A stretch of 59,182 nucleotides of DNA from Candidatus Magasanikbacteria bacterium RIFOXYD1_FULL_40_23 (GCA_001783215.1 MFRA01000002.1:1-59182); one strand, 5' to 3'; positions 3,531 to 46,426 are shown, counted from the stretch's first letter. Notes: a model not told the origin generated them from the sequence alone. Made by a program: numbers and translations.

Positions 3531-4952
3531 GTGAAAAAACTAGAACTTTCTCTTGCCTTCATTCAACTTCCTTTAGATTATATTTTAATGGTCCTAGCCG
3601 GCATTACCGCCTACTCTTTGCGTTTTACTTCCATAACCCAAAATATTCGCCCTGTTTTATTTAATCTCGCCTGGGACAAATATTTCCCTCTCATACTTAT
3701 CACCGCTTTAGGCTGGGTAATTATTTTTGCTTTAGCTGGATTATACAGTACAAGTTCCAACCGTAAACTAGCCTCCGACCTCACTCGCGTAATTTTCGCT
3801 TGCTCCACCGGCTTTGCCGCTATTACCATATACGTATTTTTTGCTCTACAAAAATTTGACTCTCGTTTTTTGGTTTTGGCTGGCTGGATACTAGCGATGC
3901 TATATGTTTGTATCGGCAGAATCCTAATGAACGGATTAAAAAAACTAATGCATCGTGCCGGGTATGGACTGCGCAAAACTGTAATTATTGGCAAAGAAAC
4001 TATCGCCGAACAAATAAAAAATGTGCTCAACTCCCGTCCAGGACTGGGATACAAACTTGTTGCTTCTTTTTCTCATTTTAATCTAGAGAGCAAACAATAT
4101 CTTTTGGAAAATCGACCAGATGAAATAATTTTTACCGACCCAAAAGCACACGGTGACGAAGCTATAGACGCCATTGATTTCGCCAACGAACACCATATTG
4201 CTTTCAAATATTCTGCCGACCTATTTTCTACTATATCTACAAATATGGCCGTTAGCACTATTGGCGGTATACCGATTATAGAGCTCCGTCTTACTCGCCT
4301 AACTGGCTGGAGCAGAATAATAAAAAGGCTCGTAGATATTATTGGCAGTTTATTTTTTATAATCCTACTCTCCCCTATATTTATCATAGTTTCTATTATC
4401 GTGGCGCTAGAAAGTGGTTTCCCAATTATCTACAAAAACGAACGTGTAGGCCAAGAAGACAAAAAGTTTTTTGCACTAAAGTTCCGCACCATGCATCAAA
4501 AATTCTCTACTGGCCCTCAGTTTGGCAAACAAGGAGAAGAGGCGCTAAAAAAAGAACAAGAACTAATCGCCACCCAAAGTATAAAGACTGGCCCAATTTA
4601 CAAAATACAAAACGACCCACGCATTACTGGTTTTGGCAGATTCTTGCGTCGCTGGAGCTTAGATGAATTTCCTCAATTCTTCAATGTGCTAAAAGGTGAA
4701 ATGAGTCTGGTAGGACCTCGCCCACACCAGCCGCGCGAAGTACAAGGCTATAAACGCCAGCACAAAATCGTTTTGGCCATTAAACCAGGCTTAACCGGCT
4801 TATCTCAAATCTCTGGCCGTAGCAACCTAAGCTATGAAGAAGAAATAAACCTAGACACCTTTTATATAGAAAACTGGAGCCTATACATGGACATGATTAT
4901 CCTAATAAAAACACCCTTTGTTGTTTTAACCAGTACCGGATCTGTTGTATAG
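3531..4952 (+). CDS. Exopolysaccharide biosynthesis polyprenyl glycosylphosphotransferase (WcaJ/WbaP-like)
   Basis: GTG start; N-terminal TM bundle, KRLVDIIGS, FRTMH, RRWSLDEFPQFFNVLKGEMSLVGPRP motif. Confidence 0.92.
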   Translation: MKKLELSLAFIQLPLDYILMVLAGITAYSLRFTSITQNIRPVLFNLAWDKYFPLILITALGWVIIFALAGLYSTSSNRKLASDLTRVIFACSTGFAAITIYVFFALQKFDSRFLVLAGWILAMLYVCIGRILMNGLKKLMHRAGYGLRKTVIIGKETIAEQIKNVLNSRPGLGYKLVASFSHFNLESKQYLLENRPDEIIFTDPKAHGDEAIDAIDFANEHHIAFKYSADLFSTISTNMAVSTIGGIPIIELRLTRLTGWSRIIKRLVDIIGSLFFIILLSPIFIIVSIIVALESGFPIIYKNERVGQEDKKFFALKFRTMHQKFSTGPQFGKQGEEALKKEQELIATQSIKTGPIYKIQNDPRITGFGRFLRRWSLDEFPQFFNVLKGEMSLVGPRPHQPREVQGYKRQHKIVLAIKPGLTGLSQISGRSNLSYEEEINLDTFYIENWSLYMDMIILIKTPFVVLTSTGSVV

Positions 4953-9444: not shown

Positions 9445-11967
9445 ATGGTCAAAGGATCAACCCCACTAAGAAAAATCCAACTTCGGCATTGCGCTATCTG
9501 CCTAAAAGTAGGGCACAACAAATCCACTTGCCCACAACTTTTACATCAAACTAGTCCGCAGACTACTCCAAAAGCAATTCCGGAAGCAAACACCAAATCT
9601 ACGGAACGCCCTCCGCTCAAATTTTTTGTGCACCATGTCCAATATCAAGACCACGAATCCCCTCATTTGGTAGATCTAAAAGAAAACAAAAATCGCTTAT
9701 ACGAAAATATCCAAGCCTCTGCCCCAGAAGAAAACAAAGACGACTTTTATTTCTTTCACGAAAAATCTACCAAGAACGAACCAAAAGTAATCAACCCCTC
9801 TTTTTCACCAAAAAAATCTCTGGCCGAAAAAAATACAGCCCCAGCTCGCCCACTTAGTGCCGCACCAAAAAATAAACAGTCGCTAGGAAGCAAACTATCG
9901 GACAAACTTTCCAACATTAAACTTTCACAATCGGCTTCAGCTATCGCAAACAAGGCGCGCGCAGTTGCCGCCCCCAAGCATCTAGTTGGGGCAATGGCTA
10001 TGATTTTATTTTTGTTGTTTGTACCAGGCAGAGCCCGCACATACTATTTTGATCTTAAATCTACAACCGATAAAGTAGCCGATAGCAGTACGGCTGGCTT
10101 TTCGGCCCTGCACGATTCTACTTCCGCCCTAATGAACGGAAACCTGTCGGGCGCCCAAACATCTCTTACCAATGCTCTACAAAATTTTAATCAGGCTACG
10201 AATATTTTAGACAGCAAATATAGCTTTTTACAAAAAGTAATTTCGGCGGTGCCAATCATGAATAATGAAATGCAAAGCCGACAAAGACTAGTCACTGCTG
10301 GCCAAGAAATATCCCTTGGTAACACATATCTACTAAAAGGACTTTCCGATGTTGGGCAAAGCAAACTTAGTATTACCAAAAACATGGCACTAGTTGGCAA
10401 CCACCTAAACTCTTCTCTACCTCACTACCAAACAGCTCAGGATGATTTAAACAACGTAGACTCCGATGTGTTGCCTTTTGAATACCAAGAAACGTTCAAA
10501 GAATTCCGCGTGCTATTTAATGTCTATGTAAAAGATCTAGAAAATCTGGCTAGACTAAACAACTCTGTCCAAGAAATATTTGGCGGACAAGGCTTAAGAC
10601 GCTATTTGCTTATCTTCCAAAATCCAGCCGAAATACGTCCTACTGGCGGGTTTATGGGTAGTTTTGCCATGCTCGATATAAAAAACGGCGAAATAGTTAA
10701 AATAGATATCCCAGCTGGCGGATCATACGATTTACAAGGACAGCTCTCCGAATATGTAGCCCCCCCTACCCCACTACTACTATCCAATAAACGCTGGGAA
10801 TTCCAAGACGCCAATTGGTTCCCAGACTTTGCCGCAAGTGCCGAAAAAATCCTTTGGTTCTATCGCCATAGCCGTAATATTACCGCCGACGGTGTAATAG
10901 CGATTAATGCCGATGTTCTAAACAGATTACTTTCTATAATCGGCCCTGTAGCCGAAGATAATCGAGGTTTAGTATTAGACAAAGCGAATGCTCTAGTTAC
11001 CATACAAGATATCGTAGAGCACGGACCAGAAAAAAAGGCCAACAAACCAAAACAGATTTTATCGGATTTAGCGCCCGTATTTATAGAAAATTTTAAAAAA
11101 ATAAAACCACAGGCAATTTTACCAATCCTAACTAATCTAGAAGAATCCCTACAACAAAAAGAAATCCAAACATACTTTGTCGACGACAACACTCAAAAAA
11201 CTATAAAAGAATTTGGTTGGAGTGGCGAAATTACAAATACCAACCCAGACCAAGATTATCTTTTTGTCGTAAATACCAATATCCAAGGACAAAAAAGCGA
11301 TGCCAGAATAAAACAAAGCATAAGCCATCAAGCAGTAATTCAACCGGACGGCACTATACTAAATAGCGTAGTTATTACTCGAGAGCATACGGGTGACATT
11401 CAAGAAAAATTATACGGCCAAACCAATATTGATTACCTGCGTATTTATGTGCCAGAAGGCAGCGAACTGGTGCGCGCCAGTGGCTTTACTTGGCCGGAAG
11501 AAAGAATGTTTAGAGCGCCAGATGCTTGGTACAAAACAGACACCACTTTATCTAATTTAGAAAAAGAAATTTCTACAGACAGCGAATCTGGCACACGTGT
11601 TACAAATGAATTTGGTAAAACAGCTTTTGGTAATTGGATTATTACTGAACCTGGCCAAACTACCGAAGTTCAATTTATTTACAAACTACCTTTCAAAGCT
11701 TGGGAAGAAAACATCAACTCCAACCTAGATAATTGGGCAAAAATTTTCCAATCCAAAAATTCTATTTCTAAATACCAGCTAATTATTCAAAAGCAATCCG
11801 GCATAAATAGCAATTTTGAAAGCCAGGTAATTTACCCAGAGGGCTGGCTACCAATCTGGCACGACGGCATAGGCCTTACTGCAGCTGCCAATGGCATGTC
11901 TATAAAGACAACCGAACTAGATACAGACAAGATTTGGGGATTGATGATGAAAAAGAGTGATGAATAA
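9445..11967 (+). CDS. DUF4012-type membrane protein with N-terminal CCHC zinc knuckle
   Basis: CAICLKVGHNKSTC at N-term; single TM; YLLIFQNPAEIRPTGGFMGSFAML typical of DUF4012. Confidence 0.85.
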   Translation: MVKGSTPLRKIQLRHCAICLKVGHNKSTCPQLLHQTSPQTTPKAIPEANTKSTERPPLKFFVHHVQYQDHESPHLVDLKENKNRLYENIQASAPEENKDDFYFFHEKSTKNEPKVINPSFSPKKSLAEKNTAPARPLSAAPKNKQSLGSKLSDKLSNIKLSQSASAIANKARAVAAPKHLVGAMAMILFLLFVPGRARTYYFDLKSTTDKVADSSTAGFSALHDSTSALMNGNLSGAQTSLTNALQNFNQATNILDSKYSFLQKVISAVPIMNNEMQSRQRLVTAGQEISLGNTYLLKGLSDVGQSKLSITKNMALVGNHLNSSLPHYQTAQDDLNNVDSDVLPFEYQETFKEFRVLFNVYVKDLENLARLNNSVQEIFGGQGLRRYLLIFQNPAEIRPTGGFMGSFAMLDIKNGEIVKIDIPAGGSYDLQGQLSEYVAPPTPLLLSNKRWEFQDANWFPDFAASAEKILWFYRHSRNITADGVIAINADVLNRLLSIIGPVAEDNRGLVLDKANALVTIQDIVEHGPEKKANKPKQILSDLAPVFIENFKKIKPQAILPILTNLEESLQQKEIQTYFVDDNTQKTIKEFGWSGEITNTNPDQDYLFVVNTNIQGQKSDARIKQSISHQAVIQPDGTILNSVVITREHTGDIQEKLYGQTNIDYLRIYVPEGSELVRASGFTWPEERMFRAPDAWYKTDTTLSNLEKEISTDSESGTRVTNEFGKTAFGNWIITEPGQTTEVQFIYKLPFKAWEENINSNLDNWAKIFQSKNSISKYQLIIQKQSGINSNFESQVIYPEGWLPIWHDGIGLTAAANGMSIKTTELDTDKIWGLMMKKSDE

Positions 11968-11992
11968 CTTACTAATTTAAAATTTTACTTTT

Positions 11993-13915
11993 ATGTCTGA
12001 AGAGCCATCCTTTTCTACCAAACCACTTTCCGATGAACCAGAAAACAAACCCAAGAAACCAAGCCGTAAAAAACGCTCACCCGAGACAAGCTCTTCTTCA
12101 AGAGAAAACATAAAACAAACTAAAATTTCCAAACAATTAACCCAGATTTACCAAGACGACCAGGGTCATTTGCCAGATATGAAAAAAATTAAAATTAAAA
12201 AGAACCATTCTGGTTTCAAGACATTTTTGGGCGTAATTTTTGTAGGTGGGCTGCTCGCCGCCACCGCTTGGGCTGGATTTTTTTTCATGCCTAGCGATCA
12301 AAAATTTTCAGAAGAAAAAGTTGAACTTCGCGTAAACGGACCTACCTATGTAACTGCCGGCACCACTACCACCTACAAAATATCTTACGAAAACAAACAA
12401 AATTTAACTCTCAAAAAATTAACTCTAAACATACAGTACCCAGAAGGTTTTGTATTCTTATCCAGTGATGTAGAAGCAAAAAACTCCGGCCACACCGAAT
12501 GGAACCTGGGAGAAATCGCTGCTGGAAAAAAGAAAGAGATTTCTATCACTGGTATTTCCTATGGATCCATAAGCCAAAAACAATCCTGGAGATCTTTCCT
12601 AAAATATAAACCGGAAAATTTTGAATCCGAATTACAAAAAGCGGCTATTTTGGATGTAACTGTAGATAAATCCCCTTTTTCTCTGACAGTAAACGGATCA
12701 AACAAAACCTTGGTTGGTAATGCTTCCGAATATACGTTTGCAGTTAAAAGAGAACAAACTTCCGCTATAAACAAACTAGAATTAAAACCATCTTGGCCGA
12801 AAAATTTTGTGATCACCTCTACCTCTCTACCCCTAACCAAAGACTTTAAATGGATCATTGAACCAAATAAAAAATTGTCCGCAACTTCTTCTGCCCCAGA
12901 TAGCTGGACATTCAAACTCACAGGCAACTTTACTGGCAGTGCCAGCGGTACTGTTCTCCAAGATAACTCTGGAGAAATATCCGGATCGCTTATCACTATA
13001 GCTAACAATAAAACCTTTAACCTAACGGACAACAAAATCACTACCCAGTTGGCACAAAACGACCTAAATTTTAACCTTGCTATTAACGGCTCTTTATCCA
13101 ACTTCAACACTCAACCCGGAGAAGACTTAAACATTACCATCTCATTAAAAAACCAAAGTAAAGGCGACCTACAAAACGCCACTCTTAAACTAAGCTTGGT
13201 TGGTCCCGCCATTAAAAAAACAACCTTGCTTGATTGGTCCAAAATAGAAGACCAATACGATGGCGACATCCAAGGAAAACAAATTACTGACAACTTACGC
13301 AAAGGTGAAATTACCTGGGGCAAAAGTAAAATTTCGTCTCTAGCCAAAATAGCTGGCGGTAAAGAAATTAGCTTGGATATTAAGCTGCCAATAAAAGATT
13401 CCTCCTCTATCAACCTATCCGATCTAGCCACCTCTTCTCAAATCACAGTGGTAGCAGACATAAGCTTCAAAGATGAAGCAAATGTTGTTCATAACTTTTC
13501 TAGCAACCAGATAATTATCGCCGTTAATTCTGATCTTAAATTTGATACTCGCGATACTGTCTCACCATCTGGCAAAGGCGAAAAACACCAACTAAATTGG
13601 GTGGTAACCAATAATTTCCATCCTTTGAAAAATCTGGTTCTATCTGCCGAAGTATATGGTGATGTGAATGTAGAATTACCAACTCCAATACCGGCAGGCA
13701 CAGCTAACTTTAACCCACAAACCAAAAAAATTACCTGGACTATTTCGGAAATGCCAGAAAGCGTAGACGTGCTGGCACTGCCAATCACTATTATCCTGAA
13801 TAAAATTAACCCTACACAAGCGCTACTCGTGTCCAAAGTTCATGTAGAAGCCGACGATACTGTTACCAGAGAAAAGCTTGATTTTATGGGAGATGAAATA
13901 AAATTTAGCAGATAA
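11993..13915 (+). CDS. Surface protein with repeated beta-sandwich (DUF11-like) domains
   Basis: N-terminal TM, repeated VNGPTYVTAGTTTTYKISYENK-type modules. Confidence 0.7.
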   Translation: MSEEPSFSTKPLSDEPENKPKKPSRKKRSPETSSSSRENIKQTKISKQLTQIYQDDQGHLPDMKKIKIKKNHSGFKTFLGVIFVGGLLAATAWAGFFFMPSDQKFSEEKVELRVNGPTYVTAGTTTTYKISYENKQNLTLKKLTLNIQYPEGFVFLSSDVEAKNSGHTEWNLGEIAAGKKKEISITGISYGSISQKQSWRSFLKYKPENFESELQKAAILDVTVDKSPFSLTVNGSNKTLVGNASEYTFAVKREQTSAINKLELKPSWPKNFVITSTSLPLTKDFKWIIEPNKKLSATSSAPDSWTFKLTGNFTGSASGTVLQDNSGEISGSLITIANNKTFNLTDNKITTQLAQNDLNFNLAINGSLSNFNTQPGEDLNITISLKNQSKGDLQNATLKLSLVGPAIKKTTLLDWSKIEDQYDGDIQGKQITDNLRKGEITWGKSKISSLAKIAGGKEISLDIKLPIKDSSSINLSDLATSSQITVVADISFKDEANVVHNFSSNQIIIAVNSDLKFDTRDTVSPSGKGEKHQLNWVVTNNFHPLKNLVLSAEVYGDVNVELPTPIPAGTANFNPQTKKITWTISEMPESVDVLALPITIILNKINPTQALLVSKVHVEADDTVTREKLDFMGDEIKFSR

Positions 13916-13916
13916 A

Positions 13917-14843
13917 CTACCTGTTCAAAAATTCTTCAAATACAGATTTGGCTAAATCCAAGTCTGTATTTTTTATCCATTTTATTCTTTTATCACGTTT
14001 AAACCAGGTCATCTGTCTCTTGGCATAACGCTTCGTATCTCGTTTCAACACTTCTACCGCCTCTTCCAAAGTCATTTCTCCTCGCAAATAATACCCAATT
14101 TGCTTGTACCCAATACCGCTCATACTAGGAAGATTCCAGCCCAACCCAAGTTCAACCAACTTTTTAGCCTCTTCTACCAAACCATCTTTAATCTGCCTAT
14201 CTACGCGACTATCGATACGCTTGTCCAATTCTTCTTTATTAATATCTATTCCAATCTGCAAAGCATTGTACAAAGGCTTGGATTGCGTTCTTTGACTAAC
14301 AAAAGACTGGCCGCTAGAAATAGCCACCTCCAATGCCCTTAATACTCGACGCGGATTTTTTAAATCTATTTTTTCTACACTCTCCGGATCTCTTTCTTGC
14401 AACATGGCTACCAATTCTGATAGATCCTTTTTTTCTAAATCACTCCTCAACTCTAAATTTGGTTTTGTTTTTGGTATATCCAAATTATCTACTATCGCCC
14501 ATATATATAAACCTGTTCCCCCAACAATTATTGGCAACTTATTTCTGGCCAAAATATCTTGGATACAATCTGTAGCCATAGCTTTAAAATCTGCCAAACT
14601 AAAATCTTGACCCGGGTTTGCTATGTCTACAATATGGTGGGGCACACCCTCTACCAAAAATACCTCTTTTTTCCACTCTCCCCTTGGTTTAGCTGTCCCA
14701 ATATCCATTTTTTTATACACCTGCCTGGAGTCTGCCGAAATGATTTCTCCATTAAATTGTTTGGCCAACACCAAACCAAGATCTGTTTTACCAGATGCAG
14801 TAGGCCCGAGAATAACAGCTATTTTTGGCAGATTGTTTTGCAT
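13917..14843 (-). CDS. miaA: tRNA dimethylallyltransferase
   Basis: GPTASGKTDLGL, ISADSRQVYKKMDIGTAKP, VGGTGLYI. Confidence 0.96.
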   Translation of the reverse strand: MQNNLPKIAVILGPTASGKTDLGLVLAKQFNGEIISADSRQVYKKMDIGTAKPRGEWKKEVFLVEGVPHHIVDIANPGQDFSLADFKAMATDCIQDILARNKLPIIVGGTGLYIWAIVDNLDIPKTKPNLELRSDLEKKDLSELVAMLQERDPESVEKIDLKNPRRVLRALEVAISSGQSFVSQRTQSKPLYNALQIGIDINKEELDKRIDSRVDRQIKDGLVEEAKKLVELGLGWNLPSMSGIGYKQIGYYLRGEMTLEEAVEVLKRDTKRYAKRQMTWFKRDKRIKWIKNTDLDLAKSVFEEFLNR

Positions 14844-14852
14844 ACACTAGGA

Positions 14853-14887
14853 ATAAAAAACATCCATTTTATACTTAGGATGTTTTT
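14853..14887. terminator. Intrinsic terminator
   Basis: aaaaaacatcc...ggatgtttttt hairpin. Confidence 0.6.
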
Positions 14888-14898
14888 TACCAGCTATT

Positions 14899-15198
14899 TT
14901 AATTTAAATCATCTTCACTTTCCGTAAAGCCTTCATATCCACTTTCGGCTATTTTCAGTGCTTCTTTTGCATCCTCGTTAGTAATTCTAGTTACTGTTTG
15001 ATCAACAATTTCTATTGCATTACTTTTTTTCTTAGCCACAGGCTTTCCGACGTCAGCTTTAAGCTCCGCTCTCGTATCCCTAATTTGTTTTGATCTTTCT
15101 AAACCTGCTCTTATTTGACGACCTTCTGCCATATGCTTAATATAGAAATTAAAAAAACTTACAATAACTATTGTACCATATTTTGGTTGTTTTGTCAA
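14899..15198 (-). CDS. Hypothetical protein
   Basis: ORF up to 99 aa; likely start at internal Met (MAEGRQIRAG). Confidence 0.55.
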   Translation of the reverse strand: MTKQPKYGTIVIVSFFNFYIKHMAEGRQIRAGLERSKQIRDTRAELKADVGKPVAKKKSNAIEIVDQTVTRITNEDAKEALKIAESGYEGFTESEDDLN

Positions 15199-15241
15199 TA
15201 CTTTTTTGCCTTATTTTGGCTAATTTTAGCCTAAATTATAA

Positions 15242-15268
15242 AGGTCTAGGCACTCTCTTTGCCTAGAC
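15242..15268 (-). terminator. Hairpin downstream of the 15305 gene
   Basis: GGTCTAGGCA/TGCCTAGACC 10-bp stem. Confidence 0.5.
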
Positions 15269-15304
15269 CATAAAACCAAGCCCTCCCCTTCATTTGCGGT
15301 CACG

Positions 15305-15550
15305 TTACCTACACCTACGGTTTGGGTTATATTCCCTACATCCCGGATTTTGGCAAAGCCATTTCCGACACTGAAAACATTTTGGCACAAAACGACTATC
15401 CATAGTGCCTGCACACGCTGCGCAAAAAGTATATTTCCATCTAGTATCACACTTGACGCACTGCAATATTGTAAAACCATTCTCTGGAACTTCGTTGCAC
15501 TTTCTTGCCTCACTCCCACACAGGCATACTTTCAATGCTGTACTAGCCAT
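15305..15550 (-). CDS. Cys-rich zinc-ribbon-like small protein
   Basis: 81 aa with several CxxC pairs (CVKC, CAAC, CFQC, CQNPGC); strong SD AAGGGGAGGG. Confidence 0.65.
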   Translation of the reverse strand: MASTALKVCLCGSEARKCNEVPENGFTILQCVKCDTRWKYTFCAACAGTMDSRFVPKCFQCRKWLCQNPGCREYNPNRRCR

Positions 15551-15603
15551 AACCCTCCCCTTTATTTAATACATTCAACCATTCTCAAAACAAAAAGTCA
15601 ATC

Positions 15604-15634
15604 AAAAAACCAACGTAAATTACGTTGATTTTTT
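15604..15634 (-). terminator. Hairpin between 15550 and thrS
   Basis: CAACGTAAattaCGTTG with flanking A/T runs. Confidence 0.5.
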
Positions 15635-15647
15635 TAACCTATTTAAT

Positions 15648-17399
15648 TTAATACTTTCTTTCTTTTATTTCTTCCAAAACTTTCTGCACAAATTCCTCCT
15701 TAGTCATTTTTATCTGATCTTTCTCGCCTCTTACCCGTATCATCCAAGGCTCTCCACCCAACTCTTTATCTCCTACCACTACAATGTAAGGAATCTTTTG
15801 CCCCACAGCTTTGCGAACCTTATTCCCCATAGTTTCGTCGGCCTCATCTATACCCACGCGAATCCCTGCGTCGGATAACTCTTTGAGCAATAACCTGGCT
15901 CCATCTACATGCTTAGATGAAACTGGTGCTAAATGTACCTGCACTGGAGAAACCCAAACTGGAAACGCGCCGGCATGGTGCTCTATAAGAATAGATAAAA
16001 ATCTTTCAATTGAACCCATAATAGCAGCGTGCACCATAACGATTCTTTCTTTTTCTCCTTGCTCGTTTGTGCAAACCAAATCAAACCGCTCCGGTTGATT
16101 ACGATCTATTTGGATAGTAGCCACTTGCCACTGACGACCAATAGAATCTTTGGCCATAAAATCTATTTTCGGTCCATACATAGCAGCTTCACCAATTGCT
16201 TCAAAAGCTTCTACACCTCTTTCTTTTACCAATTCCCGCAATTGCTTTTCTGTACTCTCCCAAACTTCTTTGGTACCTAAATAATTTTCAAACTTAGCTG
16301 GGTCATGCAAAGACAATCTCACTCGCAATTCATTAAACCCAACTGCTTTATAGAATATTTCTATAATATCCCAAATCCTAAACATCTCTTCTTTCACCTG
16401 GGATTCACGACAAAATACGTGCGCATCATCTTGGGTAAACCCGCGCACACGAGAAAGCCCATGAAGCTCTCCACTCTGTTCATCGCGATAGCACATTGTT
16501 GTTTCTGCATAACGCTGTGGCAAATCACGGTAGCTTCGCGCTATATGATTATATATCTGAGTATGATGCGGGCAGTTCATTGGTTTCATCGCAAACTCAT
16601 GCCCTTCACGAGTAGTAATTTTAAATAAATCATTTTTAAATTTATCCCAGTGCCCACTTTTTTCGTACAATTCTTTTTTTGTAATATGAGGAATAGAAAC
16701 TTTTTCATAGCCACGCTCTTTGCGAAGCTGCTGCACAAAATCATCCAATGTATTTCGTAGTAATGTGCCCTTAGGTGTCCACAGAGCCAACCCAGGCCCA
16801 ACCAAATCGGAAAAGGTAAATAAGTCCAACTCCGCTCCCAATTTGCGATGGTCTCTCTTTTTGGCTTCTTCTAACCTTAGTAAATGAGAGTCCAATTCTT
16901 CTTTGGTAGAAAAAAGAAGTCCGTAAATACGAGTAAGAGTGGCATTTTTTTCATCACCTCTCCAATAAGCCCCCGCTACTCTGTGCAATTTTAATGCGTC
17001 GGCTGGAATTTCTTTTGTGTTGTTTACATGGCCACCTCGGCACAGATCCTTAAACGGACCGGATTCATATATAGTTAGTTCTTTGTCTTCGCCCGCGAAC
17101 TCTCGGATTAATTCTAATTTAAACGGCTGATCTTTTTCTTCGGCCTCCGCTTCGGCAGCAGATACCTTTCTGCCCACAAAATTGTGGTGACCTTTTATTA
17201 TACTTTTCATCTTGGTTTCGATTTGTTCTAAATCACTCTCTGACACTACTTGGCCAGCCGGAAAAAGAAAATCATAATAAAAACCATCCTCGATAGTAGG
17301 GCCGATACCCAATTTGGTGCCTGGATACAATTCTAAAACTGCAGCAGCGAGCATATGGGCGGCAGAGTGACGAATACTATCTAAATTTTCTTGATTCAT
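15648..17399 (-). CDS. thrS: Threonyl-tRNA synthetase
   Basis: RHSAAHMLAAAV, FAMKPMNCPHHTQIY, MCYRDEQSGELHGLSRVRGFTQDDAHVFC, C-terminal anticodon-binding domain; no TGS domain at the N-terminus. Confidence 0.97.
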   Translation of the reverse strand: MNQENLDSIRHSAAHMLAAAVLELYPGTKLGIGPTIEDGFYYDFLFPAGQVVSESDLEQIETKMKSIIKGHHNFVGRKVSAAEAEAEEKDQPFKLELIREFAGEDKELTIYESGPFKDLCRGGHVNNTKEIPADALKLHRVAGAYWRGDEKNATLTRIYGLLFSTKEELDSHLLRLEEAKKRDHRKLGAELDLFTFSDLVGPGLALWTPKGTLLRNTLDDFVQQLRKERGYEKVSIPHITKKELYEKSGHWDKFKNDLFKITTREGHEFAMKPMNCPHHTQIYNHIARSYRDLPQRYAETTMCYRDEQSGELHGLSRVRGFTQDDAHVFCRESQVKEEMFRIWDIIEIFYKAVGFNELRVRLSLHDPAKFENYLGTKEVWESTEKQLRELVKERGVEAFEAIGEAAMYGPKIDFMAKDSIGRQWQVATIQIDRNQPERFDLVCTNEQGEKERIVMVHAAIMGSIERFLSILIEHHAGAFPVWVSPVQVHLAPVSSKHVDGARLLLKELSDAGIRVGIDEADETMGNKVRKAVGQKIPYIVVVGDKELGGEPWMIRVRGEKDQIKMTKEEFVQKVLEEIKERKY

Positions 17400-17400
17400 A

Positions 17401-17480
17401 TTTGAAATGAAAGAGGAAATAAATGAGCTTGCTTATTTATTTCCGAATGAATGAAAATATATGTGGCGAAGCCCCTATAC
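17401..17480 (-). repeat. Copy of GGGGCT-hairpin leader element (thrS)
   Basis: Minus GTATAGGGGCTTCGCCACATATAT...TCATTC, then GGAAATAAAT/ATTTATTTCC hairpin, then TTTCATTTCAAATATG. Confidence 0.65.
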
Positions 17481-17500
17481 GATTTAATTTATTATTAATT

Positions 17501-17729
17501 TAAACAAAAAGACCCCGTTGCGCACTATTATAAACAAATAACGCACATCGGGGTCTCTAGCATTTTTGCCAAGGACGGTTCCACCCGAAATTTAACTTTT
17601 TACCCCGTTAAATTCTGCCTTTGGCAGACCCGCTTTGCAGGTATTTAACAGGGTGAATTTGATTTGCAAGCGCTCCGAGAGTGGTACCATATCTTTTCAA
17701 ACTGGGCTGGCTCTCGTACTACCGCGCTA
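17501..17729 (-). promoter_or_regulatory. T-box riboswitch leader of thrS
   Basis: Minus TCGGG-TGGAACC-GTCCTTGGC...GCTAGAGAC-CCCGA antiterminator with canonical TGGNACC bulge (17577-17583); mutually exclusive GACCCCG...CGGGGTC-T5 terminator (17511-17555); Stem I-like 17669-17728 with ACC (Thr codon). Confidence 0.85.
17603..17653 (-). repeat. Copy B of three-way-junction palindrome, inside T-box leader
   Basis: Minus CCCTGTTAAAT-ACCTGCAAAGCGGGT-CTGCCAAAGGCAG-AATTTAACGGGG. Confidence 0.75.
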
Positions 17730-17734
17730 AAACT

Positions 17735-17763
17735 ATACTAAAATAATCCAAATTATTTGTCAA
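17735..17763 (-). promoter_or_regulatory. thrS promoter
   Basis: Minus TTGACA-17-TAGTAT (or TATAGT with 20-nt spacing). Confidence 0.5.
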
Positions 17764-38521: not shown

Positions 38522-40090
38522 CTAAACATCATGACCAGAGTATGACAAATTAAAACTCTTGTTTATCAAAGGAAAATCTGGAACCACATTGCCTTTACCA
38601 GCATAACCTAATACAGCCCAATTGATAAATGATGGATCACGCACATCTACTCTGGTGATTTGCCCTTCATTATCGGTAACCACAAAATAAAAAACTTCAC
38701 CTCTCCAACCTTCGGCCGAACCTACACCATAAGAATTTTTTCTTAATTCTACTTTTCCTTCAAAAACTAATTTTCCACTTGTTGGCATGCTAGCTAAAGC
38801 CTGTTCAATAATACTAAAAGAAGCAAAAATTTCTTTAATGCGAACATACAGTCTAGATCGCACATCACCATTTTTCTCTAAAGCTATATTAAATTTAATT
38901 TTGTTATAAGCAGCATACGGATAATCAATTCTTGAATCACTAACTATTCCCAAAGCTCTGCCGGCCACACCCAACACCCCGTGATCTGTAGCTATTTGAT
39001 AATCAAGTTGACCAGTACCTTCCAAACGATTTAAAAGCGAAGCGCTATCTTCAGAAATATCTATAAACTCGCGGAAATCTTTTTGGATTTTTTGCAAATC
39101 TTGAAGAAGTGCTTTAGATGTATCTGCAGAAATATCTTTGGTCACTCCGCCAATAGTATTAACACCGCGCAAAAATCTGCTACCAGTTAGACGTTCGTGC
39201 CATTGCATAATCTGCTCACGAAGACGAGTACCGTTGGCACCACCAAAACTAAAACCAGTATCTAACATTACAAAACCAACATCATTAAAATGATTGGCCA
39301 ATCTTTCTAGTTCGGAAAATATAACTCTAAGATACTTGGCTCTTTCCGGCACTTCGAAACTAGACAAACTTTCTATAGCCTGGCAAAAAGCCAGTGAGTG
39401 AGTAAAAGAAGTATCACCGGAAACTCTTTCTGATAATTTTACTTTATCTTGTAGTGGCAGAATTTCGAATAGTTTTTCTGTACCTTTGTGAACATAGCCC
39501 AATTTTGGCTCCAACAAAACTATCTCTTCGCCTGCAACACTGAACCTGAAATGTCCTGGCTCAATAATACCAGCATGCACTGGACCTACAGGGATTTCAT
39601 AAATACCCTCCCCTTCCACTGTTTGGAATTGGTAGGTATTGTGCGCCTCTTCTGGTCTTTGTTGCCAATTAAAATCTTTGCGTAAAGGAAATAAATTTTC
39701 TGGCCAATTTTCGTGGAGTATTAACGGTTTATGATCTGGGTGACCAACTGGTTCCAAACCAAAAAAGGTTTTAATTTTTCTTTCGTGCCAAGCTGCCTGC
39801 TGAATTTGTTTGGTAATAGAAGGAAACTCTTCTGTGCCAGACAAAGTTATGTACGGCACCAAAAAAACACTACTCCCCGGAACTCCAAATACATATAGTA
39901 TTCTAAATCTGCCGTGTTCTTTTCTTTCGTCAACGGCCGTAATGGTTTTGAGTGGTAATTTTTGTTCAAAATACAAAGTAGTAGCTACTTTTAAAATATC
40001 ACTAGATGGCACTTCATATATCAAAACATTACCGTCAGTTTTAACTTGATAGTTTTTGGAGATATATTTTTCTACTATTTCTTGATACAT
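38522..40090 (-). CDS. Hydrogenase-4 component G / NuoCD-like large subunit lacking NiFe cysteines
   Basis: EPGHFRFSVAGEEI, LGYVHKGTEKL, ERVSGDTSFTHS in place of RxCGxC, SFNLSYSGHDV in place of DPCxxCxxH. Confidence 0.88.
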   Translation of the reverse strand: MYQEIVEKYISKNYQVKTDGNVLIYEVPSSDILKVATTLYFEQKLPLKTITAVDERKEHGRFRILYVFGVPGSSVFLVPYITLSGTEEFPSITKQIQQAAWHERKIKTFFGLEPVGHPDHKPLILHENWPENLFPLRKDFNWQQRPEEAHNTYQFQTVEGEGIYEIPVGPVHAGIIEPGHFRFSVAGEEIVLLEPKLGYVHKGTEKLFEILPLQDKVKLSERVSGDTSFTHSLAFCQAIESLSSFEVPERAKYLRVIFSELERLANHFNDVGFVMLDTGFSFGGANGTRLREQIMQWHERLTGSRFLRGVNTIGGVTKDISADTSKALLQDLQKIQKDFREFIDISEDSASLLNRLEGTGQLDYQIATDHGVLGVAGRALGIVSDSRIDYPYAAYNKIKFNIALEKNGDVRSRLYVRIKEIFASFSIIEQALASMPTSGKLVFEGKVELRKNSYGVGSAEGWRGEVFYFVVTDNEGQITRVDVRDPSFINWAVLGYAGKGNVVPDFPLINKSFNLSYSGHDV

Positions 40091-40091
40091 A

Positions 40092-41537
40092 CTAATAAAC
40101 TAAAGTTGCAGATGATATTAAAAATTTAATGGCGCCAGGAAATACAAAACCGGAAATCAGTAAAGCTACTGCCAACAGCACGATGGGAGCAACTAACCAA
40201 ACACTACCTTCTCCAGCAGTAATTTCTGAATCAGCTTCTCCAAACATCATAGCAATTACATGTCGAAGAAAACCAATAAACACTAGCCCAATACCTAATA
40301 ATGCAGCCATGGTTACTATTGGGTGGCTACCGATACCGGCAGATAAAATAGAAAGTTCGGTGACAAAAATACCAAACGGTGGCACACCAGTTACAGCCAA
40401 AAATCCAAGGATAAAAATTGCACCAGTTACTGGCAAAGTAGACATTACACCTCTTACATTTTTCATTTTTGTTGAGCTGTACTTTAAGAATATATTACCG
40501 GCTGCCAAAAACAACATTGATTTGGCTAGAGCGTGATAAACCATATGAAGCAGAGCTGCAAAGGCGCCCACTCCCCCAAAACCAAAACCTAAAGCCATTA
40601 TGCCTGCATGCTCAATACTAGAGTAAGCCAATAAACGCTTATAGTTTTTCTGCGCAAAAATGCTAAAGGCCGCCACAACTATAGATATTAAACCGAAAAA
40701 TACAAGCAAATCTTGAGAAAAATCTTTACCTACAGCAGAGTCAATAACTAATTTGAATCTTAAAATCGCCAAAAAAGCTACGTTTAGAAGGGATCCAGAA
40801 AATAATGCAACTACAGGCACCGGTGTTTTGCTGTAAGCGTCTGGGCGCCAGGTGTGCATAGGCACAAAACCAACTTTCGTACCGTAACCAATTAAAACAA
40901 AAATAAATGCCATCTTGGCTATAAACGGATCTAAGTTTGGACCACTTGCAAGCAAGTTACTCCATGTTATAAGTTCAGTATGACCGCCGTTTAAAGCTGG
41001 ATACAAGAAAAGCAATGTACCAAAAAATGCGAATAATAAACCTAGGGAGTTTATAATAAGATATTTCCAAGCGGCTTCCATGGCTGATGGTTTATTGTAA
41101 AAACCGATCAAAAAAGCAGTAGAAAGAGTGGTAGCTTCAATACCAATCCACATCAAAATAGAACTGGTAGTGGTAATGGCAAAAAACATTGCCAAAATAA
41201 ATAAATGAAAAAGAATAAAGTATTGTTTTATTTTTTTAAAATCTATAATCCCTTTGGCCATTTCTGCCTTAAGGTAACCAACAGAATACAAAGCAATTGG
41301 AAAACCAGTGGCAGCCAAAGTAAGCAAGACAATTGATCCCAAATAATCAACGGAGAAATCATGACCCCAAGAATATGATCCACTTTTTAAAACAGCCAAA
41401 ACTATCAAAATGGCAAAAATTAATTCTAAAGCCGAAGCAATGATTGCAATAAAATTTAACAAGCTTGTTTTCTTTCTGATTAACAGCGACAAGCCTGATG
41501 CGACAAATGGTATTGCTAAAATTAAAAATATATACAT
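40092..41537 (-). CDS. HyfF/NuoN-like proton-antiporter subunit
   Basis: WIGIEATTLSTAFLIG, GYGTKVGFVPMHTWRPDAYSKTPVPV, SSIEHAGI. Confidence 0.9.
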   Translation of the reverse strand: MYIFLILAIPFVASGLSLLIRKKTSLLNFIAIIASALELIFAILIVLAVLKSGSYSWGHDFSVDYLGSIVLLTLAATGFPIALYSVGYLKAEMAKGIIDFKKIKQYFILFHLFILAMFFAITTTSSILMWIGIEATTLSTAFLIGFYNKPSAMEAAWKYLIINSLGLLFAFFGTLLFLYPALNGGHTELITWSNLLASGPNLDPFIAKMAFIFVLIGYGTKVGFVPMHTWRPDAYSKTPVPVVALFSGSLLNVAFLAILRFKLVIDSAVGKDFSQDLLVFFGLISIVVAAFSIFAQKNYKRLLAYSSIEHAGIMALGFGFGGVGAFAALLHMVYHALAKSMLFLAAGNIFLKYSSTKMKNVRGVMSTLPVTGAIFILGFLAVTGVPPFGIFVTELSILSAGIGSHPIVTMAALLGIGLVFIGFLRHVIAMMFGEADSEITAGEGSVWLVAPIVLLAVALLISGFVFPGAIKFLISSATLVY

Positions 41538-41541
41538 ATAT

Positions 41542-42201
41542 TTACTCTTCTTTTAAGTTCTTCATCATACTCACATCGAGTGAGCCGAATTGTTTATAAA
41601 TCATAGATGCAAATACTGTTGCGATTATCACCCAAACCAAGATATCAAATACTATACCTAGTTGCGGACCGGCGTTCTGTTCTAATCCGGATAAGAAAGC
41701 AAAGGAAACAATTGCATTTTCCAAAGACAATATACCAATCATCTGAGACAAAGCACCTTTACGATTGATTATTACAAATACAGATATAAGCATGGTAGAG
41801 AGTGCCAAAAGCAGAGCGTTGAAATTTTCTTGAGAAAGAATAGATAGCGGTTGAAAAAAGCTAGAGAAGGTAAAAGCTGTCAACATAGCCAAAATTACCA
41901 AGGTCATTGGCCCGTTTAAATAGGTGCTTACGCTAAATTTTAGTTGGTGCTTGTTTATAAGATTGCGGAAGAAATAAGGCGCAACTATAACTTTAACTGC
42001 AAAAACTGAAAGCGCTACCAACATTAAAGTAAAAGATGATTCTTTTAGAGAAGAGTTGAACAACAAAAATGCCACGACAAAAGACTGGGCCATGTAAAGA
42101 AAAACTGCAAAAGAATTTTTCTTGGCAATGTTAATAAAAATAACGGAAGCAAAAATTAAAGCTTCTAAAAAAAATAAGGTTTGTGGGCTCTCAATAAACA
42201 T
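41542..42201 (-). CDS. HyfE-like (NuoK-type) membrane subunit
   Basis: 219-aa polytopic protein; IGILSLENAIVSFAFLSG typical of HyfE. Confidence 0.8.
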   Translation of the reverse strand: MFIESPQTLFFLEALIFASVIFINIAKKNSFAVFLYMAQSFVVAFLLFNSSLKESSFTLMLVALSVFAVKVIVAPYFFRNLINKHQLKFSVSTYLNGPMTLVILAMLTAFTFSSFFQPLSILSQENFNALLLALSTMLISVFVIINRKGALSQMIGILSLENAIVSFAFLSGLEQNAGPQLGIVFDILVWVIIATVFASMIYKQFGSLDVSMMKNLKEE

Positions 42202-42203
42202 AG

Positions 42204-43139
42204 TTAAATAAAAATAATCAAACTAATAGCAATTACGCTCAAAATAAATGAGGTAAACAATAAATCCGGTAATCTAAAAAATCTAAACTTTGCGATACTA
42301 GATTCCAAAACCGCTATTAATAAACTTAACAATAAAACCTTGATAACAAACCATCCCAAAGCTGCCAAAATTGGCATTAACCCTACAGTAGTAGCAATTC
42401 CCCAAGGGAAGAATAGATTAGCGCCTAAAGCCAAAAATATTAACAATTTATTAGCCGCTGCCCATTCTACCAAGGCCAATCTTTTGCCTGAGTACTCCAG
42501 AATCATCGCTTCGTGAATCATGGTAAGCTCCAAGTGTGTGGCTGGATTATCAAAAGGAAAGCGAGCAGTTTCGGCCAACATCGCAATCAAAAACCCTGCA
42601 AAAGCTAACATTATAGGCATCATAGCCACAAGCGGAAAGGCAGATACAGCTTCTGATATTTTGAAAAGGTTGGCTGAATCAACTGCAAAAACTAAAGCCA
42701 ACATAGAAAATATCAAACCACCTTCTGTTAAAGAAGCCACTGTCATTTCTCGGCTTGAACCAAAACCACCAAAAGCACTACCTGTATCCATACCGGCCAA
42801 AGCCAAAAAGAAGGTGCTTAAAGCTAAAAGATAAACTATAACAAGTAAATCACTCAGGCTATTATTAGCAAACACTGTAGCAAAAAGCGGAATACTAGCT
42901 CCTACAATGACAGTAACTGCAAAGATAATGTATGGCGCAAATCTAAAAACCCAAGAGGCATCCTCGCTTATTACTTCATCTTTATGAAGCAATTTCCACA
43001 AATCGTTGTATGGCTGGAATATGCTAGCCCCTACTCTATTTTGAAACCTAGCCTTTATCTTGCGAATTACACCAACAAACAAAGGTGATAAGGCAGGTAC
43101 GAGTGCTAATTGAATTGTCCAAATAATTATTGAAGTCAT
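42204..43139 (-). CDS. HyfC/NuoH-like membrane subunit
   Basis: FQNRVGASIFQPYNDLWKLLHKDEV, AETARFPFDNPATHLELTMIHEAMILEYSG. Confidence 0.92.
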   Translation of the reverse strand: MTSIIIWTIQLALVPALSPLFVGVIRKIKARFQNRVGASIFQPYNDLWKLLHKDEVISEDASWVFRFAPYIIFAVTVIVGASIPLFATVFANNSLSDLLVIVYLLALSTFFLALAGMDTGSAFGGFGSSREMTVASLTEGGLIFSMLALVFAVDSANLFKISEAVSAFPLVAMMPIMLAFAGFLIAMLAETARFPFDNPATHLELTMIHEAMILEYSGKRLALVEWAAANKLLIFLALGANLFFPWGIATTVGLMPILAALGWFVIKVLLLSLLIAVLESSIAKFRFFRLPDLLFTSFILSVIAISLIIFI

Positions 43140-43147
43140 ATTAAGTT

Positions 43148-45193
43148 CTAAAAAGCCAAAAGTATCAATAAGGCAAATAAAGTTAAAAATATATACAAGA
43201 CATAAACATTCAAATTACCCAATTGAATTTTTCTAACATGCGCAGCCAAACGTGCTACTAAGGCCTGCAACGGTTTATACAGATTATTTAAATAAATATC
43301 TTCTATTCCCAAATGCACTGCACTGCTTTTGGCAAAGTAACGCATATCAGCATCGTGGTACTCCACGTCGGTTTGTTTGGTTGGTTTGAGCAAACCACGG
43401 AAAACAGTAATTATAGATCTAGAAAATCCAGTGGCAGTTATTTCCATTCTTCCATTTAAATTTGTACCACAATCCCAAGTGCGTTCAATCTTAATTTTTG
43501 CCTGTCTGTTTATAATTTTCAAAACAATCCATGCCAGCACAAGCGCAGCTACTATACTAAATAAAATAGTGGGCATAGACACTGTGGCAAACCCATCTTT
43601 TAAACTAAAGGCACCCGCAGCAGATGAAAACACAGGCTCGGCAAATCCCAAAGCTCTTACACTGCTGGCTACTGTTGCTAGTACAGAAGTAATATAACTA
43701 GCGAAGAACCCAATAACTAAAGTGAGTGCCGCTAAGATTGCCATAGCAATTCTAAGGGTGACGGCAGACTCTTTGGCATGCTTTGCCTCTTCACTTCTAG
43801 GTCTGGCCAAAAATATTGCGCCAAATGCTTTGACAAAACAAGCCGCTGCCAAACCACCTGTAAATGCCAACGAACCTGCACCTAACAAAAATACCCACTG
43901 TACGGAAACGCTTAAAGATTTGATACCATAAAAAAGAGATTGGAATGTTGCCCATTCACTAAAAAATCCATTAAAAGGCGGAAGAGCCGAAATCGCCATC
44001 GCGCCAACCAAAAAGAAGAAGGCGGTTTGTGGCATATGTTTTATTAAACCACCATATTCTTCCATATTTCTGGTATGAGTCTGAGAAATTACTGAACCAG
44101 CACCCATAAACAATAGGGCTTTAAAGGTTGCGTGGTTTAAAGTATGGAAAAGCGAAGCTACTAGCCCTAACACAGCTAATGATTTCATATCTGATGCCCA
44201 GAATACAAGCGAACTTCCCAATCCTAATAAAATAATACCGATATTTTCTATACTGTGATAAGCCAAGAGTCTTTTGATATCGTGTTCAGTAAGAGCATAA
44301 AGCACACCCAACAAAGAAGAGACTGATCCTATAACTAGAACTACTACCCCCCACCAAACTGGGATACCAGTCATCATATCCATAAAAATTCTGATAAACA
44401 TGTAGATACCGGTCTTGATCATAACTCCAGACATTAGCGCAGAAACATGAGTTGGGGCAGCGCTGTGAGCGCGAGGCAACCAAATATGAACTGGAATAAT
44501 ACCGGCTTTGGTACCGAAACCAATAAGCGCCAAAACAAAAACAAGGTTTTTTACCAAAAGAGAAACCTCTCCCATACTGTTTTTAATCACAGTAAAATCA
44601 AAGGATCCTGTAGACCTATATAGAAGCAAAAAGGCCATGATAATAAAAGCAGTACCTATATGAGTCATGATAAAATATAAGTAACCGGCTCGTAGATTAC
44701 TCTTTTCTTTGTTTTCAAATATAACCAAAAAGAATGATGCCAAAGACATTGTTTCCCAAACTACCAGGAAGAAAATGGCGTTGTGCGCACTGACAACCAT
44801 TAGCATGCCGGCCAAAAAAAGATTGTAGAAAAATCCAAGCGCACCGATATTGTATTTGTTATAGAAGTGTTTTACATATCCCAGACTATATATAGATGCA
44901 ACTAGAGCAATGAGGGATATTACAAAAATAAAAAAAGCGGATAATCTATCCACCCTAAACGAAACTGACAAAAGCGGAGCAAGCAAATCGAAGTTAAAAG
45001 AAAATACAGAGTTCTTTATAAGTACGGATAAAGAAGATACTAGACCTGAGATCGAACCAGATACTGCAAAAACGCTTCCTGCAACATTGGCCCACTTGTC
45101 GCTTTTGGCTAAAACCAGAGATCCTACAGCCCCGATTCCAAATAGCAATAAAGATATAAAAAATATAGTTGATGAAGAGATGGTAGTAAGCAT
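43148..45193 (-). CDS. HyfB/NuoL-like antiporter subunit
   Basis: VWETMSLASFFLV, GFGTKAGIIPVHIWLPRAHSAAPTHVSALMSGVMIKTGIY. Confidence 0.92.
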   Translation of the reverse strand: MLTTISSSTIFFISLLLFGIGAVGSLVLAKSDKWANVAGSVFAVSGSISGLVSSLSVLIKNSVFSFNFDLLAPLLSVSFRVDRLSAFFIFVISLIALVASIYSLGYVKHFYNKYNIGALGFFYNLFLAGMLMVVSAHNAIFFLVVWETMSLASFFLVIFENKEKSNLRAGYLYFIMTHIGTAFIIMAFLLLYRSTGSFDFTVIKNSMGEVSLLVKNLVFVLALIGFGTKAGIIPVHIWLPRAHSAAPTHVSALMSGVMIKTGIYMFIRIFMDMMTGIPVWWGVVVLVIGSVSSLLGVLYALTEHDIKRLLAYHSIENIGIILLGLGSSLVFWASDMKSLAVLGLVASLFHTLNHATFKALLFMGAGSVISQTHTRNMEEYGGLIKHMPQTAFFFLVGAMAISALPPFNGFFSEWATFQSLFYGIKSLSVSVQWVFLLGAGSLAFTGGLAAACFVKAFGAIFLARPRSEEAKHAKESAVTLRIAMAILAALTLVIGFFASYITSVLATVASSVRALGFAEPVFSSAAGAFSLKDGFATVSMPTILFSIVAALVLAWIVLKIINRQAKIKIERTWDCGTNLNGRMEITATGFSRSIITVFRGLLKPTKQTDVEYHDADMRYFAKSSAVHLGIEDIYLNNLYKPLQALVARLAAHVRKIQLGNLNVYVLYIFLTLFALLILLAF

Positions 45194-45197
45194 ATGA

Positions 45198-45764
45198 TTA
45201 GCGGTTTGTTTTATTGCTAGACTCTACTCCTTCCAAAATTTTAAGCAAGTTACAAAGAATAGTTTTGGGTGATGGCGGATCGCCAGGAATTTGGAAATCA
45301 ACTGGAATTACTTTGTCTACTCCATCTAAAACCGCATAAGATCCTTTAAATATTCCACCACTGATTGCATCGTCTCCTACGGCCACTACAATTTTTGGAT
45401 CAGGAGTGGCTTTGTAAGTACGAATAAGAGCCTCTTTCATGTTTCTAGACACTGGTCCGGTTACCATTAGCATGTCGGCATGACGAGGAGAAGCTACAAA
45501 ATGAATACCGAATCGCTCTACATCATAGTAGGCATTGGTGAGAGCGGTAAGCTCTTGTTCACATGCATTGGTAGAGCCGGCATCTACTTCTCTGATGGCT
45601 AGGGATCCATTAAATAATTTTTTAATTTTTGTTTCTAGCTGTTTTCCTATTACTTCAACACTCTCGTAGCCTAGAAGGTTCGTATCAATAACTGTTTTAG
45701 GGGTACAAAAAATTTTTTTATAAAACTTAAACATATTTTGAAATTTGAACAGATAAGGAACCAT
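45198..45764 (-). CDS. HyfI/NuoB-like small subunit with degraded Fe-S ligand set
   Basis: REVDAGSTNACEQEL, SPRHADMLMVTGPVSRNM, AVGDDAISGG, IPGDPPSP; probable start at internal Met (MFKFYKK). Confidence 0.85.
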   Translation of the reverse strand: MVPYLFKFQNMFKFYKKIFCTPKTVIDTNLLGYESVEVIGKQLETKIKKLFNGSLAIREVDAGSTNACEQELTALTNAYYDVERFGIHFVASPRHADMLMVTGPVSRNMKEALIRTYKATPDPKIVVAVGDDAISGGIFKGSYAVLDGVDKVIPVDFQIPGDPPSPKTILCNLLKILEGVESSNKTNR

Positions 45765-45835: not shown

Positions 45836-46426
45836 TCAGGCTGCGCGACGGACGATGCCCGGGTGCTTGACCAGAATATCCGGTCGGAACTTCTGACACC
45901 AGGTCTCGAACTCGTTGGCCTTGAGATGCCGTGGATGGCAAGGATCGGTCTCCTGCTCTTTGACGTCGAAGATGATCGCCGCGTCAATCCCCATGGTGTT
46001 GAGCCATCGCTTGGCCACAACGAGTAGGGCCACATTGTGAATCAGGTCAATCCCGAACTTCTGGCCGCCCAGACACGGGTAGTGACCAATGAGAGTGGCG
46101 TGACGACAGCCATTGACTGTGGCCGTTTCCACGTTCAGATTCACCATTCCGCGATGATCGCACGTCTCGTGGATTGGTGACGAAGGCGCCACAACCAGTG
46201 GACCACCCGCACAAATAACCGGGAAAAGAGCCGGGAGGGCTCGCTCCTGCTTCTGCGCAGCATTTTTGTTGATAACATCCAACCACTGAGATACATAACG
46301 CTCGTCAAAACAAGAGAATACCAGTGCCTTTGAGGCCAATGGAAGGGTTTCAGGGTTAATTTCCCGAAGGACCCCAGCTTCTTCCCAGCTACCCACAAGT
46401 TGCTTTTCTTCGTTGCTGGTGAACAT
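45836..46426 (-). CDS. Beta-carbonic-anhydrase-like protein
   Basis: CFDER (CxDxR) and GHYPC (HxxC) zinc-ligand motifs; SD GGAGAGGAGG. Confidence 0.55.
   Translation of the reverse strand: MFTSNEEKQLVGSWEEAGVLREINPETLPLASKALVFSCFDERYVSQWLDVINKNAAQKQERALPALFPVICAGGPLVVAPSSPIHETCDHRGMVNLNVETATVNGCRHATLIGHYPCLGGQKFGIDLIHNVALLVVAKRWLNTMGIDAAIIFDVKEQETDPCHPRHLKANEFETWCQKFRPDILVKHPGIVRRAA

Follow-up and report, generated by a model that had tools for sequence, protein, structure and literature searches.

In complex I, electron transfer is coupled to proton pumping through antiporter-like subunits that lie far away, and how this is done has long been a question. A natural version of the machine that kept the means of coupling and had no redox centre would separate the coupling from the redox chemistry. 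A six-gene operon in Candidatus Magasanikbacteria bacterium RIFOXYD1_FULL_40_23 raises the question of whether such a version exists and what it would do. The operon lies in a stretch of 59,182 nucleotides (GenBank accession number MFRA01000002.1, bases 1–59182, assembly GCA_001783215.1), referred to here as the window, which is one contig (C2) of a genome that totals 1.07 Mb and has an estimated completeness of 100%. The host belongs to the Magasanikbacteria order of the Patescibacteria (Candidate Phyla Radiation, CPR). The evidence presented is computational and is drawn mostly from metagenome-assembled genomes.

Metal sites of the six-gene operon

The operon occupies bases 38522–45764 (minus strand) and consists of six intact open reading frames (ORFs) that are contiguous, head-to-tail and in the order I-B-C-E-F-G. 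Together they appear to encode a complete membrane complex of the complex I/Hyf type, descended from an energy-converting hydrogenase-related (Ehr) complex. The genes and the positions of the replaced ligands are as follows.

45198–45764, minus strand: I gene, 188 amino acids, HyfI/NuoB-like small subunit with the N2 site stripped (PF01058, 2e-25)
45279–45572, minus strand: N2-cluster ligand positions in I, residues 65 (45570–45572), 68 (45561–45563), 132 (45369–45371) and 162 (45279–45281)
43148–45193, minus strand: B gene, 681 amino acids, HyfB/NuoL-like antiporter-type subunit (NCBIfam hydrogenase 4 subunit B, 1.6e-207; PF00361/PF00662)
42204–43139, minus strand: C gene, 311 amino acids, HyfC/NuoH-like subunit (PF00146, 2.9e-47)
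41542–42201, minus strand: E gene, 219 amino acids, HyfE (NuoK-containing) subunit (NCBIfam hydrogenase 4 membrane subunit, 1.4e-17; PF00420, weak)
40092–41537, minus strand: F gene, 481 amino acids, HyfF/NuoM/N-like antiporter-type subunit (NCBIfam hydrogenase 4 subunit F, 7.7e-125; PF00361)
38522–40090, minus strand: G gene, 522 amino acids, HyfG/NuoCD-like large subunit (NuoC-NuoD fusion) without NiFe ligands (PF00346 and PF00329)
39398–39427, minus strand: L1 loop of G, RxCGxC replaced (residues 222–231, RVSGDTSFTH)
38528–38557, minus strand: L2 motif of G, DPCxxC replaced (residues 512–521, SFNLSYSGHD)

Alignment of I with Escherichia coli HyfI (reference ligands C44, C111 and C141) and NuoB (C63, C129 and C158) placed the ligand positions of the N2 [4Fe-4S] cluster at T65, C68, D132 and D162, within the motifs GSTNACE, GDDA and IPGDPP, leaving one cysteine of the four. 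In G, the L1 and L2 motifs read ERVSGDTS and NLSYSGH, with S, T, S and G at the four NiFe ligand positions. The six proteins together contain 6 cysteines in 2402 residues. Those kept in most rows of the clade described below (I C68, G C236, B C452 and C575) include no cluster site, and a scan of all six subunits across the clade found none with two conserved cysteines at cluster-ligand positions. The quinone pair of complex I (H38 and Y87 in Thermus Nqo4 numbering) corresponds to I176 and G225 of G in an ungapped alignment, and the His/Tyr pair is hence absent; D226 and the NLSY motif of G are conserved.

A first-pass annotation of the window had described a Hyf-like operon of six genes on the minus strand, with no NiFe cysteines at L1 and L2, one of the four N2 cysteines left in the small subunit and no ferredoxin-like or NADH module alongside. 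This description was borne out: the Pfam and NCBIfam matches agree with the gene assignments, the motifs read as claimed, and the operon holds six Hyf-type genes only, with no ferredoxin subunit adjoining it and none of the small Mrp subunits (MrpC, E, F or G) among the six by Pfam or NCBIfam. Cysteines at shifted positions, which the annotation had itself raised as a possible objection, were rejected by the alignment with HyfI and NuoB and by the scan for conserved cysteines. It is well supported by these sequences that the ligand set for any redox centre is absent from the complex. Redox pumping by the known complex I mechanism is impossible where there is no internal electron path, and it is highly probable that this complex, having none, cannot be a redox pump of that kind.

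The operon is under purifying selection, the ratio of non-synonymous to synonymous substitution rates (dN/dS) being 0.06–0.17 for all six genes in a comparison of three close relatives. AlphaFold models of I and G gave predicted local distance difference test (pLDDT) values of 89 and 91.5, and the closest solved structures for both are in formate hydrogenlyase (7z0s). The best matches of I were formate hydrogenlyase subunit 7 and MbhJ (template modelling score 0.89 by target), and G scored 0.93 to formate hydrogenlyase subunit 5. Stepwise loss of cofactors is what a decaying relic would also be expected to show, but the dN/dS values, the presence of six intact genes across many lineages and the well-predicted folds make such decay extremely improbable, and a pseudogene or relic was rejected on the first two grounds.

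Distribution and the second loss

A large-subunit profile recovered 80 homologous loci, which include the Ehr of Nitrospira, Geobacter, Burkholderia, Rokubacteria, Thaumarchaeota and others as well as some Cys-bearing group 4 hydrogenases; 19 Ehr-bearing Patescibacteria genomes were also included. The same operon, with the same gene order and the same losses, recurs in more than 20 other loci and is therefore not a product of chance. Its distribution is patchy. It was found in 9 of 86 genomes of the window's order, where G447 carries a matching operon, and a draw of 380 genomes from the phylum contained 14 that matched the small subunit, comprising ten with the operon (only a fragment in G276), one of the L030 type described below and three with all four cysteines. 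The operon is thus present in approximately 3% of the sampled Patescibacteria (10/380).

NiFe ligands were absent from every Patescibacteria Ehr locus read and the N2 set was likewise lost. In Ehr from outside the Patescibacteria the NiFe cysteines are also gone, but the small subunit, in loci where it was recovered, keeps C-C-C-C at the N2 positions. Cysteine occupies position 65 in 48 of 49 rows of these other Ehr and positions 132 and 162 in all 49, while none of 23 Patescibacteria rows has cysteine at any of the three; the four positions there read T/D/S, C/E, D/G and D/N. Among 39 columns that are at least 90% conserved in the other Ehr small subunits, three change their majority residue in the Patescibacteria and all are cluster cysteines, the 35 non-cysteine columns keeping theirs (p = 4e-4 for the concentration on cysteines). 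As the other Ehr lose the NiFe site yet keep N2, the second loss is specific to the Patescibacteria clade, and an N2 loss common to all Ehr, a further objection foreseen in the first-pass annotation, was rejected.

In a large-subunit tree built without the L1 and L2 columns, the Patescibacteria rows that lack N2 made up one branch (support 95/80), which fell with the Ehr rather than the Cys-bearing hydrogenases; the split of Ehr from the outgroup was itself weakly supported. Both this placement and the pattern of motif loss agree with the Ehr-type affiliation proposed at the outset. Judged from the aligned loci, loss of the cofactor sites is a clade trait of the Patescibacteria Ehr. The NiFe site would have been lost first and the N2 cluster later, in the stem lineage of the Patescibacteria clade.

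The residues that replaced the cysteines could in principle hold a single metal ion, such as Fe2+ or Zn2+, through D/C/D/D and so form a sensor or catalytic site. Many rows do offer three or four possible ligands (DCDD, TCDD), but deep branches of the clade read TEGD, SEGD or TEGN, with one or two ligands left, so that no metal site is common to the clade. A clade-wide metal site in place of N2 is thus unlikely, and we regard this explanation as very improbable.

Three loci depart from the general pattern. L030 (genome G228, bases 10659–17753) is a divergent Ehr with the order B-C-E-F-G-I, in which I is preceded by a fused ferredoxin domain; the N2 positions read D-A-D-N, so N2 has been lost there too. 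A single N2 loss shared with L030 was not rejected by the approximately unbiased (AU) test (p-AU 0.42), and L030 is a possible intermediate or a second loss. The small subunit of a Rokubacteria Ehr (L077, bases 3900–4406) includes GSPNCCEI, a tandem Cys pair replacing CxxC, and reads P-C-C-C. In L049, a contig labelled Thermoleophilia (Actinomycetota), the operon falls inside the Patescibacteria clade beside Daviesbacteria, reflecting either misbinning or transfer.

Channel residues, ATP synthase and possible function

The proton-channel residues of complex I are retained as fully as in the N2-bearing Ehr. B keeps E147, K229, K260, H354, K358 and E413, F keeps E134, K158, K221, H228, H335 and E394, C keeps the acidic residues E139, D197, E204, E210 and E215, and E keeps E161 and D186. 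The transmembrane glutamate and lysines that the first-pass annotation had noted in B and F are included in these sets (E147/K229/K260/E413 and E134/K158/K221/E394, respectively), and such residues are present in both antiporter-type subunits as in an Mrp-type antiporter. With no conserved cluster cysteines and the channel residues kept, its description of an ion-translocating module lacking a visible redox centre stands; the ion moved and the drive are what we infer below. In one sub-branch of F, the Glu of transmembrane segment 12 (residue 394 in the window) is replaced by Lys together with replacement of His310 by Asn. This sub-branch comprises L020, L025, L040–L044, L048, L050, L052 and L053, and position 65 of I is Asp there where it was recovered.

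In 12 of the 24 distinct Patescibacteria loci compared, the sequence retrieved around the operon also contained ATP synthase (atp) genes, as against 1 of 53 other Ehr loci (Fisher p = 8e-7, which overstates independence as the linked loci are partly related). The 24 are loci with usable flank, selected after the link had been seen, with four very short contigs excluded and one short linked contig (L054) included. The arrangement differs between lineages. In L028, L040, L042, L044, L045, L087 and L089 the operon comes after atpC in the same orientation, at a distance of approximately 0.1–0.9 kb. In Daviesbacteria L051 it has atpC on one side and atpD on the other and runs the opposite way. No conserved seventh gene flanks the operon in the neighbourhoods of related loci, where only the ATP synthase genes recur widely. 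The clade-wide extent of the loss, the purifying selection and the repeated linkage to the ATP synthase operon all go beyond the first-pass annotation.

Gln, Ser or Thr in the c subunit of ATP synthase is a Na+ signature. The window genome encodes a complete F-type ATP synthase whose c subunit lacks it. A c subunit was found in 18 of the 19 Ehr-bearing genomes, mostly reading AEAIAIY or near this and likewise without the signature, and the ATPase is therefore predicted to be proton-coupled. The repeated atp adjacency and the c subunits in 18 of 19 genomes would also suit a complex that does not exchange cations and instead serves the F-ATPase as a regulated proton leak, a valve or an assembly partner. 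That role is quite improbable, as only about 3% of the sampled Patescibacteria have the complex whereas ATP synthase is often kept in the phylum (PMC13293708), so that the complex is not a general ATPase partner, and both antiporter-type channels are fully preserved.

In the Mrp Na+/H+ antiporter and the DAB inorganic-carbon pump, PF00361-type subunits move ions without redox chemistry. The two antiporter-type subunits of the operon, with NuoH- and NuoK-like subunits that have charged channels, would together move ions in a proton-coupled manner, most likely as a multi-subunit exchanger of protons for Na+ or K+. Exchange could be driven by proton motive force generated when the F-type ATPase consumes fermentation ATP, or could run in reverse with a cation gradient feeding the ATP synthase, a proposal that we hold to be evenly balanced between right and wrong. 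The stripped peripheral arm (I and G) may be kept as a structural and gating cap, in which acidic or polar residues at the former cluster ligands would let the empty site retain its charge and fold. The reading that we prefer is of a non-redox, complex I-type proton/cation translocator that is tied to the proton motive force of the F-ATPase and is Mrp-like in function, and we give it about an even chance.

Several points weigh against this reading. In the window genome the atp operon is on another contig (C1), unlinked, and the linked loci elsewhere are, as stated, partly related. The linkage fits a role in generating proton motive force equally well, and the sequence may be compatible with a soluble redox partner that carries a cofactor other than Fe-S and binds in the cavity of G. 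An ordinary PF00999 antiporter is also encoded in the window genome, which means that exchange through the six-subunit complex would not be the sole route. Co-occurrence of PF00999 antiporters with the operon in the order gave no clear signal; most Ehr-bearing genomes have one and so do most others. Finally, an E. coli NuoE query gave one partial match (C1:163392–163616, 28% over 77 residues, E 1e-7). This NuoE-like match adjoins a SufS-like match (C1:163642–164808), outside the window and far from the operon.

It is distinctly unlikely that the complex still transfers electrons, via an unseen cofactor (flavin or other) or a soluble partner reaching the cavity directly. The other Ehr, which keep N2, are suspected to be redox-linked (PMC6349859), and a generator of proton motive force would suit the ATP synthase linkage. 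Against this, the N2 relay, cluster-forming cysteines and quinone residues (H38 to I176, Y87 to G225) are gone, and the gene content of the genome, searched by motif, Pfam and BLAST, includes neither a UbiA-family enzyme nor a 4Fe-4S ferredoxin nor a complete NADH module. The search of the whole 1.07 Mb gave no CxxCxxCxxxC protein of credible length, and motif, PF12838 and tblastn searches for a 4Fe-4S ferredoxin were all negative, rejecting the ferredoxin-like subunit elsewhere in the genome that the first-pass annotation had allowed for. Queries with E. coli NuoF, NuoG, NuoI, HyfA, HyfH, Fdx (2Fe-2S), Ndh, CydAB and CyoABC had no match in the window genome. A UbiA-family enzyme was also missing from 14 of the 19 Ehr-bearing Patescibacteria genomes, and 15 of the 19 had no PF12838 match. 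Homologues of SufBD, SufC, SufS and NifU are present in the window genome, and the cell should therefore be able to build Fe-S clusters; a general inability to make them was rejected, and the loss is specific.

An ORF of 196 amino acids (45836–46426, minus strand) is found approximately 70 bp upstream of the I gene. It has no Pfam or NCBIfam match and contains CxDxR (SCFDER) and HxxC (GHYPC), a pattern as in beta-carbonic anhydrases. Its sole homologue within the order is in G050, which also bears the operon, with the gene located away from it. This gene enters into a further explanation, in which a non-redox ligand or substrate occupies the former NiFe/quinone cavity between I and G, and its binding or conversion there drives ion movement. 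I and G are intact and conserved (D226, NLSY) beyond the needs of a pure antiporter, Mrp having no such arm, and the only other carrier of the upstream gene in the order is Ehr-bearing. As other operons do not keep this gene alongside, as it matches no known family and as no ligand is known, we consider a ligand-driven pump or transporter unlikely.

To return to the proton/cation translocator, non-respiring Patescibacteria keep ATP synthase without an obvious source of proton motive force (PMC8080830; touched on in PMC13293708), and the complex bears on this puzzle. In its broadest form our proposal, on which our judgement is equally divided, is that a machine of complex I architecture, with both peripheral core subunits kept, moves ions without electron transfer, is genetically tied to the ATP synthase of these cells and has a part in the making, trading or use of their proton motive force. 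Were transport without redox to be shown, the complex I fold would gain a new way of operating.

Relation to known systems

The nearest relatives in the large-subunit tree are Ehr such as those of Geobacter and Nitrospira, which have the same kinds of subunit and have lost the NiFe ligands in the same way (SGD.., NLSY.G). They differ in keeping the N2 cysteines, in some having a ferredoxin domain or subunit, in having I after G (where read) rather than first, and in the lack of atp linkage. The large subunit without NiFe ligands and the placement in the tree are those of an Ehr. The N2-bearing small subunit is missing, and the complex is therefore filed as an Ehr-derived variant rather than a standard Ehr. 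Group 4 NiFe hydrogenases have the L1 and L2 CxxC motifs that are absent here. Formate hydrogenlyase and hydrogenase 4 (Hyc, Hyf) share the membrane subunits, but this operon has no NiFe site, N2 cluster, HyfA/H ferredoxins or HyfD gene. Respiratory complex I has a homologous core with the same channel residues and differs in its N2 cluster, quinone His/Tyr pair, NuoI and NADH module, none of which is found in the operon. To our knowledge, neither Mrp nor DAB carries NuoB- and NuoD-like peripheral subunits, and the Mrp small subunits and DabA are absent from the operon.

Across the loci there is a graded series, from NiFe plus N2 (with or without ferredoxin) through N2 (with or without ferredoxin) and N2 only to no cofactor, which suggests an evolutionary path from redox pump to non-redox translocator. 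Ehr were already known (PMC6349859), as were NiFe-less Ehr in Patescibacteria. Jaffe et al. (2020) described the Patescibacteria (CPR) Ehr as monophyletic, with a large subunit lacking metal-binding cysteines (PMC7304191), and the clade of the window is very probably theirs. The main text of that paper makes no mention of small-subunit cluster loss in Ehr, ATP synthase or antiporters, and a keyword search of the literature, in which subscription journals were thinly covered, returned nothing on the loss of N2 from the Ehr of Patescibacteria or on their linkage to ATP synthase. Both appear to be new, the earlier work having reported the missing NiFe cysteines only.

In L041 (bases 12644–14425), and also in L042 and L044, a CBS-domain gene and an ArsB/NhaD-like transporter gene, named by eye, are found directly behind G. 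Their presence in three related loci suggests a connection with ion homeostasis.

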